DNA of 40,408 nucleotides from Thoreauomyces humboldtii. Taxonomy: Eukaryota; Chytridiomycota; Chytridiomycetes; Spizellomycetales; Powellomycetaceae. Below, one piece after another: positions 1 to 34,576 of this stretch. The stretch lies in contig JADGJA010000117.1 in NCBI GenBank assembly GCA_027596035.1, positions 1 through 40,408 on the forward strand, given 5' to 3'. Made by a program: the position numbers and the translations under genes. Below the pieces are notes generated by a model. That model was given only the letters and a program-made list of their open reading frames with translations. It was not told the DNA's origin and did not search any database. How positions within the stretch are numbered: position 1 is the stretch's first letter; each line of letters starts with the position of its first letter.

Positions 1-1277
1 GACGGGAACTGCAGTTAGTAGTCGATACTATGCAGGGAACGCAGGTGGTAACCGACGATGCGGGGGTGGGAACTCGGTTGGACAGCTTACGCTGGAGAGC
101 TTACGGTAACGGTACTGTGAGTTCCTTGCGGATGTGAGTCTCTGTAACGGAATGTAGATCGTACAGAACGTAGAACGTAACGTTGAGGATGGATAGTAGT
201 CGGTAACGCAGTACTGTGCTCTGGGAATGGAGCTAGAGAGAATGTGTAGAGGGAATGGTTTGCTGGGGAGTACTGCATGTATACTGATGTGCTGTGCCAC
301 CAGTGCCACCAGACGTTTGCGCGACAAACCTACCGGTATAGAAGGACCGGAAGTTCAGTGGAGGATGATGTTCGGGATTCAGAAGTCGGTTGCTCCCCCT
401 AATATCCCAATGAAATACAGCAGACGATGTGTCTTCTCCACGCAGCGGATGGTTGCTGCAGTACAGCCGAGAGTCCTTCCACCTGCCCTTCAGCATCGCA
501 GTCGCCTTCCAGTTCAACACCTACCTCCTGTGCCTTTCGAATCTCAGTGTGCACAACGGAGGGCCCTCGGGCTGCCCAGTGTCATATGCCACTGTCCCGC
601 ATCATTGCGTAGTTATCTCTGTTCCTTCCCATAGCGACCGAGGATCGTGGATAAGGTCAAGCTTCCAAGACATCACGTCGAGAATCAAGGCGGAGGAGGG
701 ACCGTGGGAAGGGTGCTCAACCCCCCTGCTGGAGGAAGAGGATGGATCACTTATGTTGGGCGCATGCTATCCCCTTCACAACTTCCCCATCCCAGTTACG
801 ATTTTTCATGGGACCCTGCACGATTGCATATGAGTAGACCCTGGCTCGAGTCGTACGACCGGGTGCACGGTAAAGGTACCTAAACCCATTCCTTGATCGC
901 CTTACCGTGGTACCGTGTGTAAAACCCCGCATTCTTCGTCGCGAGAGTTTGGGGGCATGTGTGGGCGGCGCCTCCTCCCTCACCTCTCTCTCTTCTCTCC
1001 TCATCCCTTTTTCGCCGCTAGCACACAACCATATCTCGTAACCTGCAAGCGGACCACCCCTCGCTGCTCTTCCCGCCGATCTCACCGCTCTCTTTACTTT
1101 ACACACCGCTTTCACATCTAAGTCGCATCTTCCCGCACGCAGCGTCCATCTGATACGCCTCTACCCTCGGCTCGCTGCTTTCACGTGTCAGCGCTCTGGT
1201 CGACATTGCCGGCAACTTTCCTTGAGACCGCTTGCGGTGACTGTCTTTTTCCCCACCCGCGCTTCTCTTTAGTCATC
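1..1277. other. Region without a recognised gene
   Basis: I see no recognisable gene here. Open frames occur on both strands (for example 429-833 plus and 233-520 minus) but none shows a familiar motif, a convincing start or a conserved pattern. The first 240 bases are rich in short variants of gtaacg. The last 300 bases are rich in C and T and probably hold the promoter and 5' leader of the CRAL-TRIO gene that starts at 1278. An exon of a gene lying mostly outside the window cannot be excluded. Confidence 0.5.
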
Positions 1278-21741: not shown

Positions 21742-24700
21742 ATGGACTACGTCTCTCGCAGCATGTCTTCGATGAGGTTGGACCCATCCGCAGTCAAGCT
21801 AACAGAGCTGCCTCTGCGTCCCGTTCCCGGAAAGGACGGTCGGGCGATCAAGGTTCGCTGCAACATATTTCCACTTAGGTGAGTACGATGCGCTACCTGC
21901 GAAAGACTTTCGAAGAGGTCGCGATGTGACATCTACTAACATCCTCCTCGTTCCTTCAGGATCGCGGCCGAAACCATCGCCTACCAGTATGATGTTGTCA
22001 TGGACCCCGACATCCCAGTTCTCTACAAAAAGGCGTGGCGTCTTGCAGAGCCTTTGTTTCGCGATGGCAACCATCGAGCATACATCGCCTTTGATGGAAA
22101 GAAGAACGCGTTCTCAACTGCAATCCTTGGCCCCATGTGCCACAAGGTCACCATTGATCAAGACGCCGACGACTATTACCCTCCCCTCCAGCAACAGCAG
22201 ACAAGCCCTGGCGGGAGCGATCGAGGTGGTCGTGGAGGTGCACGGGGCGGGCGAGGTGGCATGACGCGCGGACCGTACCAGCACAGAGACCTTGACCCGT
22301 TGCCACGCGAGGTCAGGCCCGGGAAGGCTCAAACTCTCCGCATCGAGGAAATTACGGTAGCCATAAAGCAGGTTTGTGATGCGTAGGTCTCATTCCAGTA
22401 TCCCCCTGAAGCCTCCTTGACGATTTTTCGTGAGAACAGGTCGGAAAGATTGACTTTCACTCACTTCTTCTGTATATGGCCAAGAAAGGTCCCGAGACAG
22501 AGACGGCTTTTCATGCAACTACAGTCCTCTCCACTGTCCTCCGTCATATTCCTGGAATGACCTTCATCAGTGCCGGCGCCAACTTTTATTCCCCAGAAGA
22601 TCGCACACACATATCTGGCGGGCTGGAGATTTGGCGCGGTTACCATCAGTCCATTCGAGTTATGATGGCCGGCCACCTTGGTGTCAACGTTGACGTTGCC
22701 GCTACCGTCTTCCGTCAAGGAAACCTCTCGTTGATCGACCTTGCCTGCCAGGCGCTGCGGGTTCGCGACGTGAACGATCTCGCTCGTATGCCCCCCGCCG
22801 CGCTCCGTGCTCGTCTTGCGTCGGAACTTCGTGGGGCGAACGTTGTTACAACCCATAGGGCCGACATGAAACAGCGCTTCAACATTGGCACAGTCTCTAA
22901 AGACACCTCTGATACGAGCATGTTCGATTACAATGGCAGAAAGGTTTCTGTCACGACGTACTTTCTGCAGCAGTACAATATCAAGATCAACTATCCATTC
23001 TTGCCTTTGGTGCTCAAGGTTAGCAGAACGTTGTGATCACGTGTCCCTTTGCAATCTGCTCGCACAACTTCCACAAACTTGAACGTTCAATTTAGGCAAA
23101 TGGCAAATCCGCGTTCCCGATGGAATTCCTGGCTATAACACCCTCACAGCGGTTCAAGAAAAAGTTGAACGGCGATCAAACTTCTGATATGATCCGCGCG
23201 ACTGTCCAGCGTCCAGTAGACCGTGAGAAAAAAATCGCTAATGCCGTAGCTAACACACTCAAGTACCAGAACAACCCTCACCTGGCTTCCTTTGGTCTAT
23301 CTGTTGACCCGGATCCGATGACTATCCCAGCACGGGTGCTCAACGCTCCGAACGTTGTCTTTGGCGGCAAACAGCAGTGTAAAGGGGGAGATGGTTTCTG
23401 GAAGCTCGGCAAGGCGCTTGCGAAGCCTTCCAAGATCAACGCGTACGCCTTTGCGTTCTTTTGTCAAGTCTCGGACAAGGACGCTCGTGAGATCGTCTCA
23501 CAGCTCATCGGCACTTTTCGCCAAACCGGCATCCAGTTCGGTTCGGCCGCCGAATGCCCACTGCGAATACAGAATCCCGAGCAGTCGCAAAACGTGCGCA
23601 AGACCCTTCACGCCCTCGCTACCGAAGCCACCAGAACCTTTAACTCTCGCTGCCAAATCATCTTCTGTATTGCTCCCAAAGGCCTCAAGATCGACAACGG
23701 ATCGCGCGTCCTTTACGACGAAATTAAGCGGATCACACTCACCGAGATGGACGTGTTGTCTCAATGCATGGACTACGGAAAAGTCCGTCTTGAACGGCTG
23801 TCGCCCAAGTACTCGGAAAACGTTGCGCTCAAGACCAACGTCAAGATGGGCGGAGCAACCAACTTCGTGGACCGCCTGCCTTTGATGGACCGCCCCACCC
23901 TCATCTGCGGTGCCGACGTGACACACGCTCACGCTGGCTCGGCAGCGCCCTCTGTTGCAGCAGTCGTTACGTCTGTTGACAACCAGGCTGTCAAGTACCG
24001 GACCTTCCTGTCGGCTCAGCCGTCTCGCGTCGAGATTATTGGAGACATGGAACGGATCATGAGCGACGCCCTCGATGCGTTTCGAGCAGGATCCAAGATA
24101 TACCCCGAGCGCATCATCTTTTTCCGTGACGGCGTGTCATCTGGGCAGTTCAGGGAGGTCCGAGAAACGGAGATTGCAGCCATCAAGAGAGCCCTCGCCA
24201 AGCGCAAGCTCGAAGGGGTCAAGCTCACATTTATGATCGTGCAGAAGCGTCACCACATCCGCCTGTTCCCCAATGATCCCAACAATCAGGATAGATCCGG
24301 CAACTGCCTTCCAGGAACTACCGTGCGTTACGATTGACTTGAACGAGAGGTGGTCGAGAGCACCATCAGCTCACACGACGGGCTTTTTGCTAGGTTGACA
24401 CGTCCATCCTCCATCCGAGCGAGTTCAACTTTATCATCCAGTCTCATGCCGGCCTACAAGGCACCTCTCGGCCCACCCTCTACCACGTCCTCCACGACGA
24501 GATCAAGGTTTGTGGTTTCCGAAGGGGGCCGATGCGATAGGAACCAACAAACTCACTCCTTCTTCGACCTTTTTCACGCTTCAGATGAGCTCGGACGCGC
24601 TTCAGCAGTTGTGCTACAACCTCTGCTTCCTCTCCGAACGGGCCACGCGGAGCATCAACATGGTCGCGCCTGCTTACCGCGCTCACTTGGCAGCGTACTG

Positions 24701-25506: not shown

Positions 25507-25524
25507 CGACTACATTAGCAGCCG

Positions 25525-25560
25525 TCTCTCTCTCTCCCTCTCTCTCTCTCCCTCTCTGTC
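25525..25560 (+). repeat. CT-rich tract
   Basis: Almost pure tc/ctc repeat of about 36 bp, 70 bp upstream of the start codon at 25630. Pyrimidine tracts of this kind often mark fungal transcription start regions. Confidence 0.85.
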
Positions 25561-25629
25561 TTGGCTCTCCGTCCTTCATTCGCCCTTTTCGTTCTCTCCT
25601 CGCTGTTGCTGTCAGTTGTTCGTACGATC

Positions 25630-27420
25630 ATGCTTGGGCGCGCAGGCTCTCCTCCTCCTTCCATCGTGACATCGGGAAGGACAGGCTGGATCACTCCTCC
25701 CCATCCACAGCTGCTGCAGCCTTGCTCACCTCGCCGGAGTGCAACCAACACCACCTCCACTTCTCCAACGACTCCTCCCGCTTCGCCGCTGGCCGCTGCC
25801 GCCGCCGCTCGCTACAGCAGAGCCGCGCCCACAATCTCCTTCCCTCACCACCCTCAGCACTCCACCAACACCAGCAATGCTGACCACCATTCGCACGCTT
25901 CTATACCATTTTCTCAAGGCACCTCCTTTTCGAGGTCCTCCTGCGATGCCTGCAAGTTGCGCGCAGAGCGGATCGCAGAGGCAAAGGCACGCGTGGAAAC
26001 TGCAAAGACGGGAAAGCGCATCACCCCCTGGCACCCCGTCGGATCGGCCACCCCACTGGCCAGCCCTCTACCTGTCACATCCCCTGTCCGAGCCTCGAGG
26101 CAGAGTCTGACCGACAGCCTGTCGGCCGTCTCCCCAAAGGTGGATTCGGGCCTGCGATCGCATGAGGGAACTCCTCGATCCGTCACTTCGCCTTGGAAGC
26201 GCCCCGGCGGCCAGCCAGTATCCCCCGCAGGCTCATCCCCCTCGGGAACGGGAACGGGAGCGAGCAGGGACAGGGCGCAGTCGACCAGGCCAGTCTGGAT
26301 CTCGCGTCCGTCTCCCGCAGCAGACTACCGGTCCACGCCCAGACCGAGGTCAGCCACGAAACCACGCACAGGAAGAACACCGGCCGCACCCATCAGTCCG
26401 CAGGCGCGGCGCCACGTCACAGCGAGCATAGCCGCCGCCGCTGAAGTCGCCAACGTCGTGCGGGAACCTTCGGTACCGATTCCTTCGACTGCGGTGACCT
26501 CCGCCGTTTTCAAGACTCTGACCCTTGAGCCGGAGCTGACAGTGGAGGAGGACCCCATATCATGCCCGGTTGTCCTCGAGAACGTCCTCCCAAGCGTTGC
26601 CGCTGGTGTGACCGAGCGCCCTGTCCAAACTGGAGACATGCGGTCTGGTGGTCCGACCGAGCCTGCTTCCGCTACCTTCCTTCTTCCAAGCGTAGTAGCC
26701 ACGTTTACCTCTGCAGATGCTCTATTCGGATCTCCATTGGTCGTGGCGGCGTCGGATTCCCTTACTCCATTGTCCTGCATCCTTCCCCTTGCAGCGGTCG
26801 TGCTGTCCGATGTCTCCCTTGTGACGCAAAGCTCTTCGGTCCTAGCAATCTCCCAAGCCATCGAGACTCTGCACCTGAAGCCGTCCCCACCTGTCAAGCT
26901 CGCCGTCCCTTTCCGTCCCCGAGCACCCTCCATCACCATCCCAACCGTCGAACCTCCACCAATTGCGCAACCCCTTGTCCTCCCGCCACGTCGCCCGCGC
27001 GTCGACATGACTAACCTCACGGCTGTTTCCACTCACCTCCAATCCACCGCCGACTCGATGCAAACCCTACACCGAACCCTCCGCTCCCCCACCGCCACAC
27101 GACAGGAAAAGTCGAGCACCAAGGCATCGTACATCCAGGACGCCGAACACCTCGTCGCCCTGGCGAGGGACGTCTGCGTCTCGTACACGGGTCCGGCCAA
27201 GCGATGCGAGGACCACACCCTTCGGATCGAGCTGGAGGGTCATCTCCAACAGGTCAGCGTCCTCGCCGTGCAGCTGAACGCGGTCGCCAGGAGGAAGAAG
27301 GCGGACATGGCCGACAGGGACGCGGACGGCGTGGTCCTAGCCTGCGCCGGAAACCTCCTGAGCGCGTGTCTGAAGGCCGTGGACGCTTTGAACGCCGTGG
27401 GAATCACTCTGGCTCAGTGA
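25630..27420 (+). CDS. Unrecognised Ser/Thr/Pro-rich protein
   Basis: Single open frame giving 596 aa from the ATG at 25630 (MLGRAGSPPPSIVTSGR). I do not recognise it. Residues 1-100 are Pro/Ser/Ala-rich. A short charged block with a CxxC pair follows (SSCDACKLRAERIAEAKARV) and looks helical. The middle is low in complexity with Val/Ser/Pro. The last 140 residues are different: they look like an all-helical bundle (DAEHLVALARDVCVSYTGPA, QVSVLAVQLNAVARRKKADM, GVVLACAGNLLSACLKAVDA). Such a layout (disordered scaffold plus C-terminal helical bundle) fits a cytoskeletal or polarity adaptor, but that is only a guess. The long frame, plus the switch to ordered sequence at the end, argues that it is real. 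Confidence 0.7.
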   Translation: MLGRAGSPPPSIVTSGRTGWITPPHPQLLQPCSPRRSATNTTSTSPTTPPASPLAAAAAARYSRAAPTISFPHHPQHSTNTSNADHHSHASIPFSQGTSFSRSSCDACKLRAERIAEAKARVETAKTGKRITPWHPVGSATPLASPLPVTSPVRASRQSLTDSLSAVSPKVDSGLRSHEGTPRSVTSPWKRPGGQPVSPAGSSPSGTGTGASRDRAQSTRPVWISRPSPAADYRSTPRPRSATKPRTGRTPAAPISPQARRHVTASIAAAAEVANVVREPSVPIPSTAVTSAVFKTLTLEPELTVEEDPISCPVVLENVLPSVAAGVTERPVQTGDMRSGGPTEPASATFLLPSVVATFTSADALFGSPLVVAASDSLTPLSCILPLAAVVLSDVSLVTQSSSVLAISQAIETLHLKPSPPVKLAVPFRPRAPSITIPTVEPPPIAQPLVLPPRRPRVDMTNLTAVSTHLQSTADSMQTLHRTLRSPTATRQEKSSTKASYIQDAEHLVALARDVCVSYTGPAKRCEDHTLRIELEGHLQQVSVLAVQLNAVARRKKADMADRDADGVVLACAGNLLSACLKAVDALNAVGITLAQ

Positions 27421-27539
27421 ACACTCGTCGACCTCCTGGTCTTTCCTCCTTTTTATTTGTGTGCGAATTGTTTTACACTGTTACACCCCTCACTCTCCAG
27501 TGGGGTACCCTCCTTTCGATCGTACGATGCTATCTGTAG

Positions 27540-28118
27540 ATACTCTATTCTTACAATAGTGCAGGGTCCCATGATAGGCGCAACTGGGATTGGAGCATTG
27601 TGGAGGGGAGGGGAGTTGATGTCGCCCGCCTAGGCGCCAAGCACAAAGAAGTTCGGGCTCTCTGTCGCCGCATCGAACGCATCATCTCCATGCTGGAAGA
27701 AAGGAAAAGAATCCAGCAGTTGATCTCAAAGAAAGTCAAGTGCATCCACATGTTGGCCGCACGGTTCCTCAACGCATACGATGCAGTCGTTTTCCCCCGT
27801 CTCAAGGTTGCGGACATGATGAAAGAGTCCTGGTCTGGTCCTCAGGGTGTTGCTCAATCTGCCTTCTCCCAACTGTCTCACCTGAACTCGTGGGATCGAA
27901 TCGAACGCTCGTTTAAATCGGAAGGGAATGTTTTGCTGAATGGAGACGAGACACATACGACAAAGTCGTGCTGCGAGTGCGGAAACATGCGACTGATGAA
28001 GAAGCAGAAGATCTACAGGTGCTGGACATGCTTCACAAACAGTAATCGAGACGGGAACGCCGCAGCAACCATTGGCCTCAAGGCCTTTTGCCGAACTCTG
28101 CGGATGCTGGAAGGTTGA
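27540..28118 (+). pseudogene. Fanzor (TnpB-like nuclease) C-terminal remnant
   Basis: The frame is open from just after a stop at 27537 to the stop at 28118, without a convincing ATG at its 5' end (first ATG near 27690). It encodes only the C-terminal part of a Fanzor/TnpB-like protein: a helical stretch (EVRALCRRIERIISMLEE), a RuvC-II-like segment AYDAVVFPRLKV, the block NGDETHTTKSCCECGN, a second zinc pair YRCWTCFTNS, and RDGNAAATIGLKAF with the RuvC-III aspartate. TnpB and Fanzor are RNA-guided DNA nucleases of transposon origin. The wedge domain, REC part and RuvC-I aspartate are missing, since only 120 bp separate it from the stop of the previous gene. It is therefore a truncated copy, unlikely to cut DNA alone. 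No internal stop breaks the remaining 190 codons. No terminal repeats or guide-RNA end were recognised. Confidence 0.82.
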
Positions 28119-28574
28119 AAAAGAAACGGGCGGGCATAGACGTCGAGCCGGAAAGGAGGCCCCTCTCGGAAGCGATGGAAAAGACATAATTCGATAAACA
28201 ATCTTCAAAAGACCTTCGTCAGTACCGAGAAAGACGGGAATTGCTGCATAAATGGACGGCTTACCGCACCACGTCGAACCCGGCAGGGTCCGGAAGCCGC
28301 TTTGCGTACCGGTAGATACACTGCCAGATGTAGTATGGCGCTCCTGTGCATGGATCCTGCAGGTTGCCACCAGCATCCTGGATGACGGTAAATTGGCTGC
28401 TTAGGTAATTGTCCCCAGTTGCTGCATTTCCTCTTTCCTCCCCGTTCCCCGTTGGAAATTCCCGACATAAGACGAAGCCTCAACTTTCCCAAGAACACCA
28501 CGCTGGACGACCCGGCCCACGTGCAGAGAGAGAGAGAGAGCCACTTGAGGACATTGCTTGGAGGGTGTCTAGGT
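28119..28574. other. Intergenic region between Fanzor remnant and MYND-SET gene
   Basis: 456 bp. Its first part is where a guide RNA would be expected if the Fanzor had been intact, but I recognise no such structure. On the minus strand 28262-28402 reads as a protein-like exon (see the separate entry). An AG dinucleotide run lies at 28525-28541. The right end should contain the promoter of the gene at 28575. Confidence 0.4.
28262..28402 (-). other. Possible orphan exon
   Basis: Read on the minus strand after a cctaagcag acceptor-like site near 28403, this stretch encodes FTVIQDAGGNLQDPCTGAPY, continues with YIWQCIYRYAKRLPDPAGFD and stops at VVR. The composition is protein-like and unlike the shadow frames around it. 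I find no upstream exon, because the region to the right is the start of the MYND-SET gene. It may be a remnant of another gene or of the element that brought the Fanzor, or chance. Confidence 0.25.
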
Positions 28575-30675
28575 ATGGCGCCCAAAGAGTCTTCTCCAGT
28601 TCAGGTCGTCGACCAGCATGCTCTAGGGCTGGGTTCCCCTCATATGCAACTTCTTAACGACGACGTCCAAGGAAGGTACCTTGTTAGCACCTCTGCCCTC
28701 GACAAGAAGACCGAGCTTCTTGCAGTTGCCAGTCCTTATGCTTTCGCCCTCTTTGACAACCACAAGAAGCGCGTATGTGCTGTGTGCCTTGCCTTCAACG
28801 ACCAAGGCGCCTTTCACTTGCACTGCCGCAACTGCGACCAGGTTTACCTGTGCTCCCCGAACTGTCTCGCCACACTTCTTGCGGACGGCCATCATGTGGT
28901 CTGCGTTCAGCTGAGGCGCCTTGCCACTTTCAAAGCCCCGCAGCACGAGAAGAGCGTCCTCAAGATATTGCTCTTTATCTTGTTCCGGAGGCACGTCGAG
29001 CGAGGCCGGCACCTGCACACGTCGGCCAACCTACGGTTTCCCTTGCTTGCCGAGTCCTCTCCGTTGAGCGACCAGAGCGCGAGGTGGGTAACAAAGTTAG
29101 GCGGGACACTGAGAGTGCTAGCCACCGTTGACCATCGTCTTTTCTTCACGTCAGCCTTAGTAAAGCCACGGATTCAGCCTCAGTGCACTCTCCCGGTCCT
29201 CCGGACAGTCCCATTCCGACCATCGTCGAACCCAATGAGATTGCTGCTCCGAAGGCCTTCCGCCCGTCCACTCCACTGTCAACCACGTTGCATAGGTACA
29301 CGACCCCACCAAGGCACGACCCGGCTCACTCCTATACTCCTCCACCAGCGCCGCCGACCCCGCCAATCTCGCCTCAGACTGCACCCCCGGCCTGCACGTT
29401 TCGCCATGTAGACCTCTTGCAGTCCCATTTCCTTCAATGGCCCGCGGACGATACCAGCGATTGGCGAAAGACCAAGAACTTCATTGTCAAGCTTTTGGAA
29501 GAGTGCGGGCTGCTTGAGGATTTGGATAGGGTTCCTCAGGTACCTGGCGGAGATCCTTCCGAATTTGTGCTTCATCTGGTCAGCAAAGTCGAAAGCAACG
29601 GGTTCGGGTTGTGGAGTCCGAAGAAAGAGAACTGTATGGGTAGGGCCGTTTTCCCTCAGGCCAGCTACTTCAATGTAAGTACTGATTGTAAGATCAGACC
29701 CATTATTGCCTTGGAAGTCAGGCAAAGAAGGATTACAATCTTATCGCTAATCGTGGAATCCCTTTTCATCATCAGCACTCTTGTAGTCCGAACAGTCAGT
29801 GCTTGCAAACGGGTCCTCGCATGACGATCACCACCCTAAGGGCGGTTCCCAAGGGCACCCCGCTTACGATTTCATACATTGACGCCAATGTTCCCATGCA
29901 GCAGCGCCGAAGAGTGCTGATGCAAGATTATCATTTTCACTGCATGTGCGAGCGATGCATCGCCGAGGATTCTCGATCCGGTCCTTTGCCGCCCGTTTCC
30001 TTTACGCCCATCACCTCTTACTCTTCGTTGGCAAGTCCGTCAGCTGGCCCTTCCCCGTCACTTTCGGATCCCCTCCAGCAACAGCAACAGCAGCAGCCCC
30101 GTCAGAAACTGACGTATGAGCGCAGCTTTGCCAAGGAGCCTCGTGGAAGAGGTCGAGGAGCCCGCGCAAAACTGGCTCGCGCTGCCGCCGCCACCTCGAC
30201 TGTGCCTGCCGGCAGCGCGGCTCTCATTACACGGCTTCCAGCTGGAGAAGCGGGCGCAGGGACGACTGTGTTGCGCTCGCAGAGTAGCTTGGTGTCATCA
30301 CCGGCACAACCCCAGCCACTACCTACCTCTCCATCACGGCCCCCCGTGAGCCTTCTTGCATCGCACCCACCGCCTCCCGTGGCAGTGTTGACTATCATTC
30401 CTCCTCCCTTGACTGTCAACAATCGAACAACTTCATCGACTGCCTCCGCATCTACGTCCATCTCCCCTTCAGGAACAAGTCCAAGGTCACTCCGTCGATT
30501 ACCACTCGGGGCTCCTAACGTGGCCGAGATCCGGCAACGTATATCCATATCTGCCCCCCGCCCTGGCCCTACCAAAGGTGTCTCTAGCGGGGGAAGTGGC
30601 AGGAGAAACACCAGGCGGAAGGGTGGTTCCGCTGGAACTGGAACCGTGTCACCCGTAATCGTCTCGACTCCGTAG
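28575..30675 (+). CDS. MYND-SET (SMYD-type) protein
   Basis: Exons 28575-29083, 29155-29674 and 29776-30675 give 642 aa. The MYND zinc finger occupies residues 68-110 with all eight ligands (C68, C71, C84, C87, C93, C97, H106, C110). The SET core NHSCSPNS is created by the last splice at residues 343-350. SYIDANVPMQQRRRVL carries the likely catalytic Tyr376, and the post-SET cysteines are in FHCMCERC. Enzymes of this class methylate lysines on histones or other proteins. Between MYND and SET lies a long Pro-rich insert (29180-29390). The C-terminal 230 residues are Ser/Pro-rich with a Gln run and a basic end (RRNTRRKGG). No ATG precedes 28575 in frame. The substrate cannot be told; yeast Set5/Set6 and animal SMYD proteins are the nearest relatives. 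Confidence 0.88.
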
Positions 30676-33367: not shown

Positions 33368-34576
33368 GCGGGTGAAAGTCATCCTGGCAGCCGAAAGTCG
33401 ACGTGATCGCCGATTGCTCCCGCTTTCCTTCTTCCTGGATTTTGTCCAGCTTCTTGCCAGGCGCCCTTCTCTCTCGTTCCCGCGATCAGTTCGCTAAACT
33501 AGTCAAGATTAACCAATTTCACTATACACTGTTACTACCCACCAGATTCAATCCGAGTGCCCCGTCGGACTTGGGTCGCGGTCATCCACTTGTGTGTGGC
33601 AAATGGATGACCGCGACCCAAGTAAATCAGACAGCTACACCAGTGTTCTTTTCTGCAACTCCACTTCGCGGATGGTCGTCCGGTCTTGTTACGGAAGACG
33701 CCCGGAGCCGCCCATCCAGCCAACGTAACAAAGAAGCAGCGAGAACCGATCTCGTAAAGCGTGAACCGCTTACCGCAGTGTCACCTTTTTCGTCCCAAAT
33801 GCTGTCGACCATCAACGAGACGATGGTCGCTTCCTCCGTGCACTTGGTCAAGGGTCGGAATATGCTTCGCAGGGGCCTCATTGGATTGCCGCACACTTTG
33901 CACTTTGTACCTGGCCTCGGTAGACTGCAGAGGCCAAGCTGACGAAGAGTTGGAGGAACTCTCCTTGACCTGGAACTCGAGACAGCGGGACTCAGGCGAA
34001 AAGGGAAACATGGTACTGGCCTTGTCCGTGTTCGTGCCGGATTCCATCGAATCCAGCAGTCACCTCTCAGCCGGATGAGCAGCTGGGCGGAAGGACCAAA
34101 ACCGGAACCAATACGGACACATGGGATCCTCATCAGGGTCGCAACAGCAACTGACAGCTCTGCCTGCCACGTCAAGAAACACTGAAAGGTTTGTGCCCTC
34201 AAAGGCTCCAGGCCTCAAGGTCTCAAAGGCTCAAGGCAAGCCTGCGCTGCGGCGTTTGCGGCAGTTTGGCCGGAGAGCTCCGTGGCGTGCGGTCAACTTG
34301 CCCTCTCCCTGTGTGTCTTTTTGTTCCAGAGATGGGAATTGTTCTCTCTTTCGTCACGGGAAACAACCTCATCACCACACAGCCTCTCCTCCTCCTCTTT
34401 CCTCTTGCCGTATGTACAGTCTTTCGTCTGCCTAGTCCCTCTACCCTTGACTCTAGAAGAGTCTTTGATATCCATCTCGTGTTGGCTGTTTTCCGCGCGC
34501 ACTCGTTCTACCACTGCTTTCGGACCATCGCGAAGAGACACCGTGGCAAACTCTTGGTGGCGGCAAGGAACGTGCA
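33368..34576. other. Intergenic region with hairpin; no firm gene
   Basis: 1.2 kb between the divergent J-domain and kinase genes. It holds the long hairpin at 33569-33623 and an imperfect direct repeat near 34196-34240 (variants of ctcaaaggctc). Open frames occur on both strands: 33403-33942 plus, and 33627-34202 minus with the zinc-like phrase TKCKVCGNPMRP. None is supported by a domain, and they overlap one another. The last 250 bp are C/T-rich and likely belong to the kinase gene leader. Confidence 0.45.
33569..33623. repeat. Inverted repeat, 24-bp arms and 7-nt loop
   Basis: The left arm 33569-33592 (acttgggtcgcggtcatcca then cttg) and the right arm 33600-33623 pair with one mismatch. 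The loop is tgtgtgg (33593-33599). Transcribed from the minus strand, the mismatch becomes a G-U pair, so the RNA stem would be continuous over 24 bp. No transposon ends or coding role are evident. Confidence 0.9.

Follow-up and report, generated by a model that had tools for sequence, protein, structure and literature searches.

We describe here a C-terminal fragment of a Fanzor gene (27618-28118, plus strand) in a 40,408-nucleotide stretch of the genome of the chytrid Thoreauomyces humboldtii (the whole stretch analysed, hereafter the window), and conclude that it is very probably an ordinary mobile-element relic in decay, with no present job. The segment is homologous to Fanzors, lacks RuvC-I and has a dispersed repeat at its upstream junction, and no intact relative was found in our searches. 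The order and mechanism of its truncation, and its lack of function, we infer. It would represent a non-mobile, catalytically incomplete remnant of a divergent Fanzor2-like (TnpB-family) gene whose N-terminal part, RuvC-I and WED/REC parts included, would have been lost. Going by the domain order of Fanzors, we take the missing half to have held the WED and most of the REC parts. The features considered, numbered from the first letter of the window, are as follows.

25519..27420, plus strand: frame of an unrelated upstream gene, 633 codons, stop at 27418-27420
27540..28118, plus strand: whole open frame as first delimited, 192 codons and a stop codon, a chimera in which repeat DNA precedes the Fanzor fragment
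27544..27611 (possibly to 27631), plus strand: dispersed-repeat (R) copy whose left end is fixed (TCTATTC...) and which contains the palindrome GGTCCCA...TGGGATT; translated as codons 1 to ~24 of the frame
27618..28118, plus strand: Fanzor C-terminal fragment, 166 codons, comprising the pre-RuvC-II helix, RuvC-II strand, zinc (TNB) domain and RuvC-III helix
27690..27692, plus strand: earliest ATG of the frame, at residue 51; translation from it would give a 142-residue protein
27777..27800, plus strand: RuvC-II strand DAVVFPRL, a strand in the model, with P86 at 27795-27797
27948..27950, plus strand: E137, the alternative RuvC-II glutamate of Fanzors (E-x6-C-x2-C), located by regular expression and invariant in a 16-sequence alignment
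27969..28031, plus strand: C4 zinc ribbon (C144/C147/C161/C164), from the PF07282 match, pattern search and alignment
28050..28052, plus strand: D171, RuvC-III aspartate in RDGNAAATI, from the translation, pattern search and alignment
28575..29099, plus strand: first part of the next gene, ~460 bases past the stop of the fragment

Fanzor features of the fragment

A first-pass annotation, made from the letters alone, had described the frame as a truncated Fanzor without RuvC-I, and this identification stands: the homology holds, and the RuvC-I stretch of the nearest relative (on contig C622, below) finds no counterpart in the window. The profile search proposed at that time returned PF07282 (Cas12f1-like_TNB) above its cut-off over residues 121-178 (E=2.6e-7; 31.2 bits against 26.3). 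The top match among NCBIfam models was IS607_TnpB (E=3.8e-7), which at 29.4 of 350 cut-off bits lies far below its threshold, a shortfall expected because a fragment was compared with a full-length cut-off. Against PDB sequences the best match was 9b0l_P (TnpB-like protein L79; E=2.4e-9, residues 57-178).

The residues singled out earlier, namely two C-x2-C zinc pairs (C144-x2-C147 and C161-x2-C164) and the RuvC-III aspartate of RDGNAAATI (R170-D171), are present in the translation. Spelled out, the signature reads E137-x6-C144-x2-C147-x13-C161-x2-C164-x6-D171, and residues 137-171 match the pattern E-x6-CxxC-x(12,18)-CxxC-x(4,8)-D, which distinguishes Fanzors from TnpB. Hallmarks reported for Fanzors are a DPG motif at RuvC-I and a glutamate relocated six residues ahead of the zinc finger (PMC10711439), this rearranged glutamate being placed on the loop from strand five to the TNB domain (PMC11423790). 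The TnpB/Fanzor motif [TS][TS]-x-x-C4 zinc finger-x(5,50)-RD is likewise found in the frame. An older motif for the TnpB/Fanzor superfamily, D-x(125,275)-[TS][TS]xx-C4-RD (PMC3627910), adds a RuvC-I aspartate 125-275 residues ahead of [TS][TS]; no such aspartate occurs in the frame, the formal pattern match (D12) being translated repeat, and DPG at RuvC-I has no match in the frame, as expected given the truncation. Two of the three active-site acids remain in the fragment, RuvC-I having gone with the N-terminal half.

In the 16-sequence alignment, active-site and zinc positions are intact in the window copy (P86, E137, T140, K142, the four cysteines, R170 and D171), a point against decay. The proline P86 of the RuvC-II strand is invariant there, and lies close to the place expected of the canonical TnpB glutamate. 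Of six nearly invariant positions, three are kept in the window (L77, H114, D171) and three are changed (T138, H139, K154); the changes suit a decaying or divergent copy and so favor the interpretation as a relic.

An AlphaFold model of the frame built with this alignment had a mean pLDDT of 76.6 and a pTM of 0.49; prediction from the single sequence was uninformative (mean pLDDT 46.2). The helical lead-in claimed earlier reappears in the model as a predicted helix spanning frame residues 28-77. When the 16-sequence model was submitted to Foldseek, the predicted fold ranked the mimivirus Fanzor2 ternary complex 9b0l first (E=6.8e-5; TM-score 0.52 by query length), as the sole match with E<=0.001 among 312 with E<=10, with Cas12f chains next and PpFz (9cf0) appearing only at E=0.88.

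Mimivirus L79 thus gives the top match in both sequence and fold, and resembles the window piece in C-terminal architecture, whereas the window piece is without RuvC-I and every N-terminal domain. The Fanzor1 proteins SpuFz1 and PpFz1 have, like it, a C4 zinc finger and a rearranged glutamate in RuvC (PMC10711439, PMC10432273), but no entry named Fanzor1 appears among the 18 PDB sequence matches at E<=1, and PpFz is only a weak fold match. Best matches in sequence and fold point toward Fanzor2/IS607 as a probable placement. The first-pass annotation had mentioned Fanzors from early-diverging fungi such as Spizellomyces. The host is indeed a chytrid of the Spizellomycetales, the order that also includes Spizellomyces. 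The comparison requires refinement as to type, in that the best matches of the fragment are Fanzor2/IS607 whereas PMC3627910 assigns the Fanzors of Spizellomyces to Fanzor1. That paper already describes fungal Fanzors as well as Chlamydomonas copies with 5' truncation. The present locus is absent from the titles and abstract openings listed for literature on Fanzors in chytrids, truncated or domesticated Fanzors, eukaryotic Fanzor and TnpB transposable elements, and Thoreauomyces genomes.

Relatives in the Thoreauomyces humboldtii genome

The genome (20.67 Mb in 823 contigs) was searched for full-length copies, as the first-pass annotation had suggested, and yielded only partial or broken relatives of the fragment, on contigs C622, C107 and C707. 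With the window copy these make four known members of the lineage, each partial or broken; no full-length relative was found across the whole-genome searches, nor a second copy with the identical truncation, and the DNA of 27640-28600 matched only itself in the genome. The C622 copy is 48-49% identical to the fragment over 73 residues; it overlaps the fragment and carries the RuvC-I DPG (GADPG) that the window is without, and the zinc-finger pattern was not found downstream of it. The C107 copy has two stops, and its locus contains an internal direct repeat of 274 bases (82% identical) spanning part of the helical region. The C707 copy, with two stops within its match to the fragment, is a weak relative (E 5e-6 in one search with the fragment, 1.2e-6 with the C622 piece) and was not retrieved by plain tblastn with the fragment, where the best E was 2.4.

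A second Fanzor family in the same genome, family A, is 25% identical to the window piece. It shares with that piece the TNB/RuvC-III region and the alternative glutamate, and differs in having a DPG RuvC-I and long open copies: an 839-codon frame that reaches the contig end (C800:7603-10119, minus strand) and a 734-codon frame (C17:38661-40751), with further pieces on C128, C52, C622 and C716. The T. humboldtii database protein HKX48_003392 is encoded exactly by loci of C128, and another protein of the species (P0016) agrees with C17 across the 55 residues compared. On C800, a partial match to IS607 transposase, below cut-off (26.7 of 110 bits), lies upstream in the frame of the Fanzor; no IS607 recombinase was recognised beside the window fragment. 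From RuvC-I to RuvC-II, neither family A nor the C622 piece is interrupted by an intron, and both frames are open. A single Spizellomycetales genome holds a second, divergent Fanzor lineage of four partial or broken copies beside a family with long frames.

Comparison of the window and C622 copies over 73 codons gave dN 0.38 and dS 1.72 by NG86, the latter near saturation, with differences distributed 28/17/40 among the three codon positions; YN00 returned no value for the pair. These figures suggest that the lineage of the fragment was once under purifying selection, and are silent on the time after truncation.

Outside the genome, 49 word-sharing candidates from the protein database yielded no match to the fragment at E<=0.001, and 258 yielded none at E<=0.01. 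Proteins of T. humboldtii are included in that database, and the fragment has therefore probably gone unannotated. Searching with a profile built from both families retrieved 21 database proteins, seven of which phmmer ties to the fragment at E<=10 within those 21.

Repeat R and the open frame

The repeat at the junction, R, is 92-95% identical to copies on C782, C379, C434 and C445 over the 55-72 bases aligned by BLAST, and 84-93% identical when whole alignment columns are counted; similarity to a copy on C85 extends to 27631. It occurs in at least 16 places on 14 contigs, several with weaker similarity. By eye, 15 of the 16 places have this left end in common (TCTATTC, with variants), the one on C245 being ambiguous, and in pairwise BLAST the right end varies from 96-98 bases (C782) to 149 (C434) and 253-262 (C379 and C445). 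One fixed and one variable end would fit the 3' end of a 5'-truncated retroposon lying on the minus strand or, by analogy, a one-ended element like the Helitron2-like Fanzor1 carriers of Chlamydomonas (PMC3627910). Compared with the majority base among the four copies closest to it, the window copy has 3 differences in 68 positions (4.4%). No target-site duplication was seen around it, the longest shared word being 4 bases, so that insertion of R at this place is a putative event.

Since similarity to C622 begins only at 27618 (27615 in another search), the first ~26 codons of the frame are, by alignment, mostly translated dispersed-repeat DNA and not Fanzor. This calls for caution: an open frame with a zinc ribbon resembles a gene, yet its first 26 codons are mostly repeat. 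The earlier proposal that transposition or deletion removed the first half survives in part, in that the N-terminal part is missing and the breakpoint falls where a dispersed repeat ends; the mechanism we infer, the simplest being that R inserted and DNA beside it was lost, or that a repeat-mediated deletion followed later. The frame would have stayed open because R brings no stop in this phase and decay has yet to strike the Fanzor part.

The frame is stop-free as first reported, its translation running to 192 residues. Openness of this extent is not rare in the window, which contains 38 stop-to-stop frames of at least 192 codons (real exons counted in), and when 27544-28600 was simulated 2000 times with a first-order Markov model, 35 of the sequences had a plus-strand frame that long. 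Openness is weak evidence for use; what rises above chance in 27540-28118 is its protein similarity. Antisense to the fragment there is a further open frame of 224 codons (27726-28400, minus strand), which is probably due to chance. Nor can the recent loss that had been suggested be dated by the intact frame. If the divergence of R is taken as the age of the truncation, and the two ages need not coincide, the 492-base Fanzor part would have remained open neutrally at 4.4% divergence with a probability of ~0.4 without indels, or ~0.07 with one indel per ten substitutions (both interpolated), a mild hint of recency or constraint.

Several further observations concern R itself. The window contains a second, more diverged copy (770-838, minus strand; ~77%). 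R as a structured RNA was set aside: the palindrome is broken, by eye, in C782 and C570, and the model forms only 6 pairs. An Rfam search over one long R copy gave a single match at chance level (E=3). On C570 (3752-3854, minus strand), a 117-nt R copy lies within an apparent coding exon, flanked by repeated GGTACGTCT; the copy begins GT and ends AG, the insert is open in frame, and the flanks joined without it form a continuous frame (...IDWYVSRNLAVPL...CCVCGS...). By its sequence this copy resembles an intron of mobile-element origin, in the manner of introners.

Less likely readings: re-use, cargo or spliced gene

Decay has to be weighed against re-use of the remaining half, for which the first-pass annotation had allowed and which has gained no direct support. 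The TNB/zinc ribbon and RuvC-III helix could have been retained as a small nucleic-acid-binding protein, started at the ATG of 27690 or joined to an upstream exon; the frame is open with its active-site and zinc residues retained, and a candidate acceptor (TAG|GCG, ~27632, by eye) is in phase with it. The RuvC and TNB domains of complete Fanzors touch DNA (PMC11423790), and the NUC domain of SpuFz1 touches its guide RNA (PMC10432273), for which reason the remnant might, by analogy, still bind nucleic acid. Against retention, the protein database holds no match, the identical truncation has no second copy in the genome, and the start of the frame comes from a repeat. The comparison with exapted TnpBs is also unfavorable: the TldR repressors are, like the window piece, TnpB relatives without a working nuclease, but they are described as dropping the nuclease site while guide-RNA and DNA binding persist (PMC13418256), whereas the window piece has lost its N-terminal half and retains two of the three active-site acids. 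We regard retention as decidedly unlikely. A more specific version, in which insertion of R made a small chimeric gene whose zinc-ribbon/RuvC-III half hinders the IS607-type Fanzors with long open frames in this genome, strikes us as exceedingly improbable. Should the piece prove to be expressed, we know of no earlier half-Fanzor with a role.

Very unlikely, in our estimation, is that the R end and the Fanzor piece form one mobile unit, Helitron2-like or retroposon-like, with the fragment as cargo rather than wreck. R does have a palindrome and a fixed end, and Fanzor1 elements of Chlamydomonas are reported to be Helitron2-like, often 5'-truncated, and to share their ends with Fanzor-free elements (PMC3627910). 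The distributions speak against a unit of this kind: Fanzor matches fall on C21, C622, C107, C707, C128, C800, C52, C17 and C716, R falls on 14 contigs, and C21 alone has both, the Fanzor-side DNA (27640-28600) recurring nowhere else. That the frame is instead the last exon of an intact, spliced Fanzor gene with N-terminal exons farther upstream is extremely unlikely, even though Chlamydomonas Fanzor1 genes have 5 or 10 exons (PMC3627910), since tblastn with the RuvC-I-to-RuvC-II piece of C622 found the fragment alone in the window, the 839-residue family A protein found nothing there (weak evidence, as it missed the fragment too), family A and the C622 piece are intron-free over that region, and the space just upstream is filled by the repeat and an unrelated gene.

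The frame 27540-28118 had been placed directly after that unrelated gene; the upstream frame does end before it, at 27420, but 119 bases intervene. No Pfam family was found in this upstream frame at E<=0.01, and Rfam gave no matches over 27000-29000 at E<=5. The next gene downstream has a MYND finger below the Pfam cut-off (E=0.0036, in a scan from 28578) and a SET segment above cut-off at 29692-30672. Elsewhere in the window, 55 bases at 33569-33623 match their own reverse complement at 84%, and 96-264 is 73% similar in DNA to the flank of the family A Fanzor on C128 (L015 615-768), which is perhaps another dispersed repeat. An Argonaute gene lies ~3 kb from the fragment, at 21940-24337, with ArgoL2 and Piwi above and ArgoN below cut-off.
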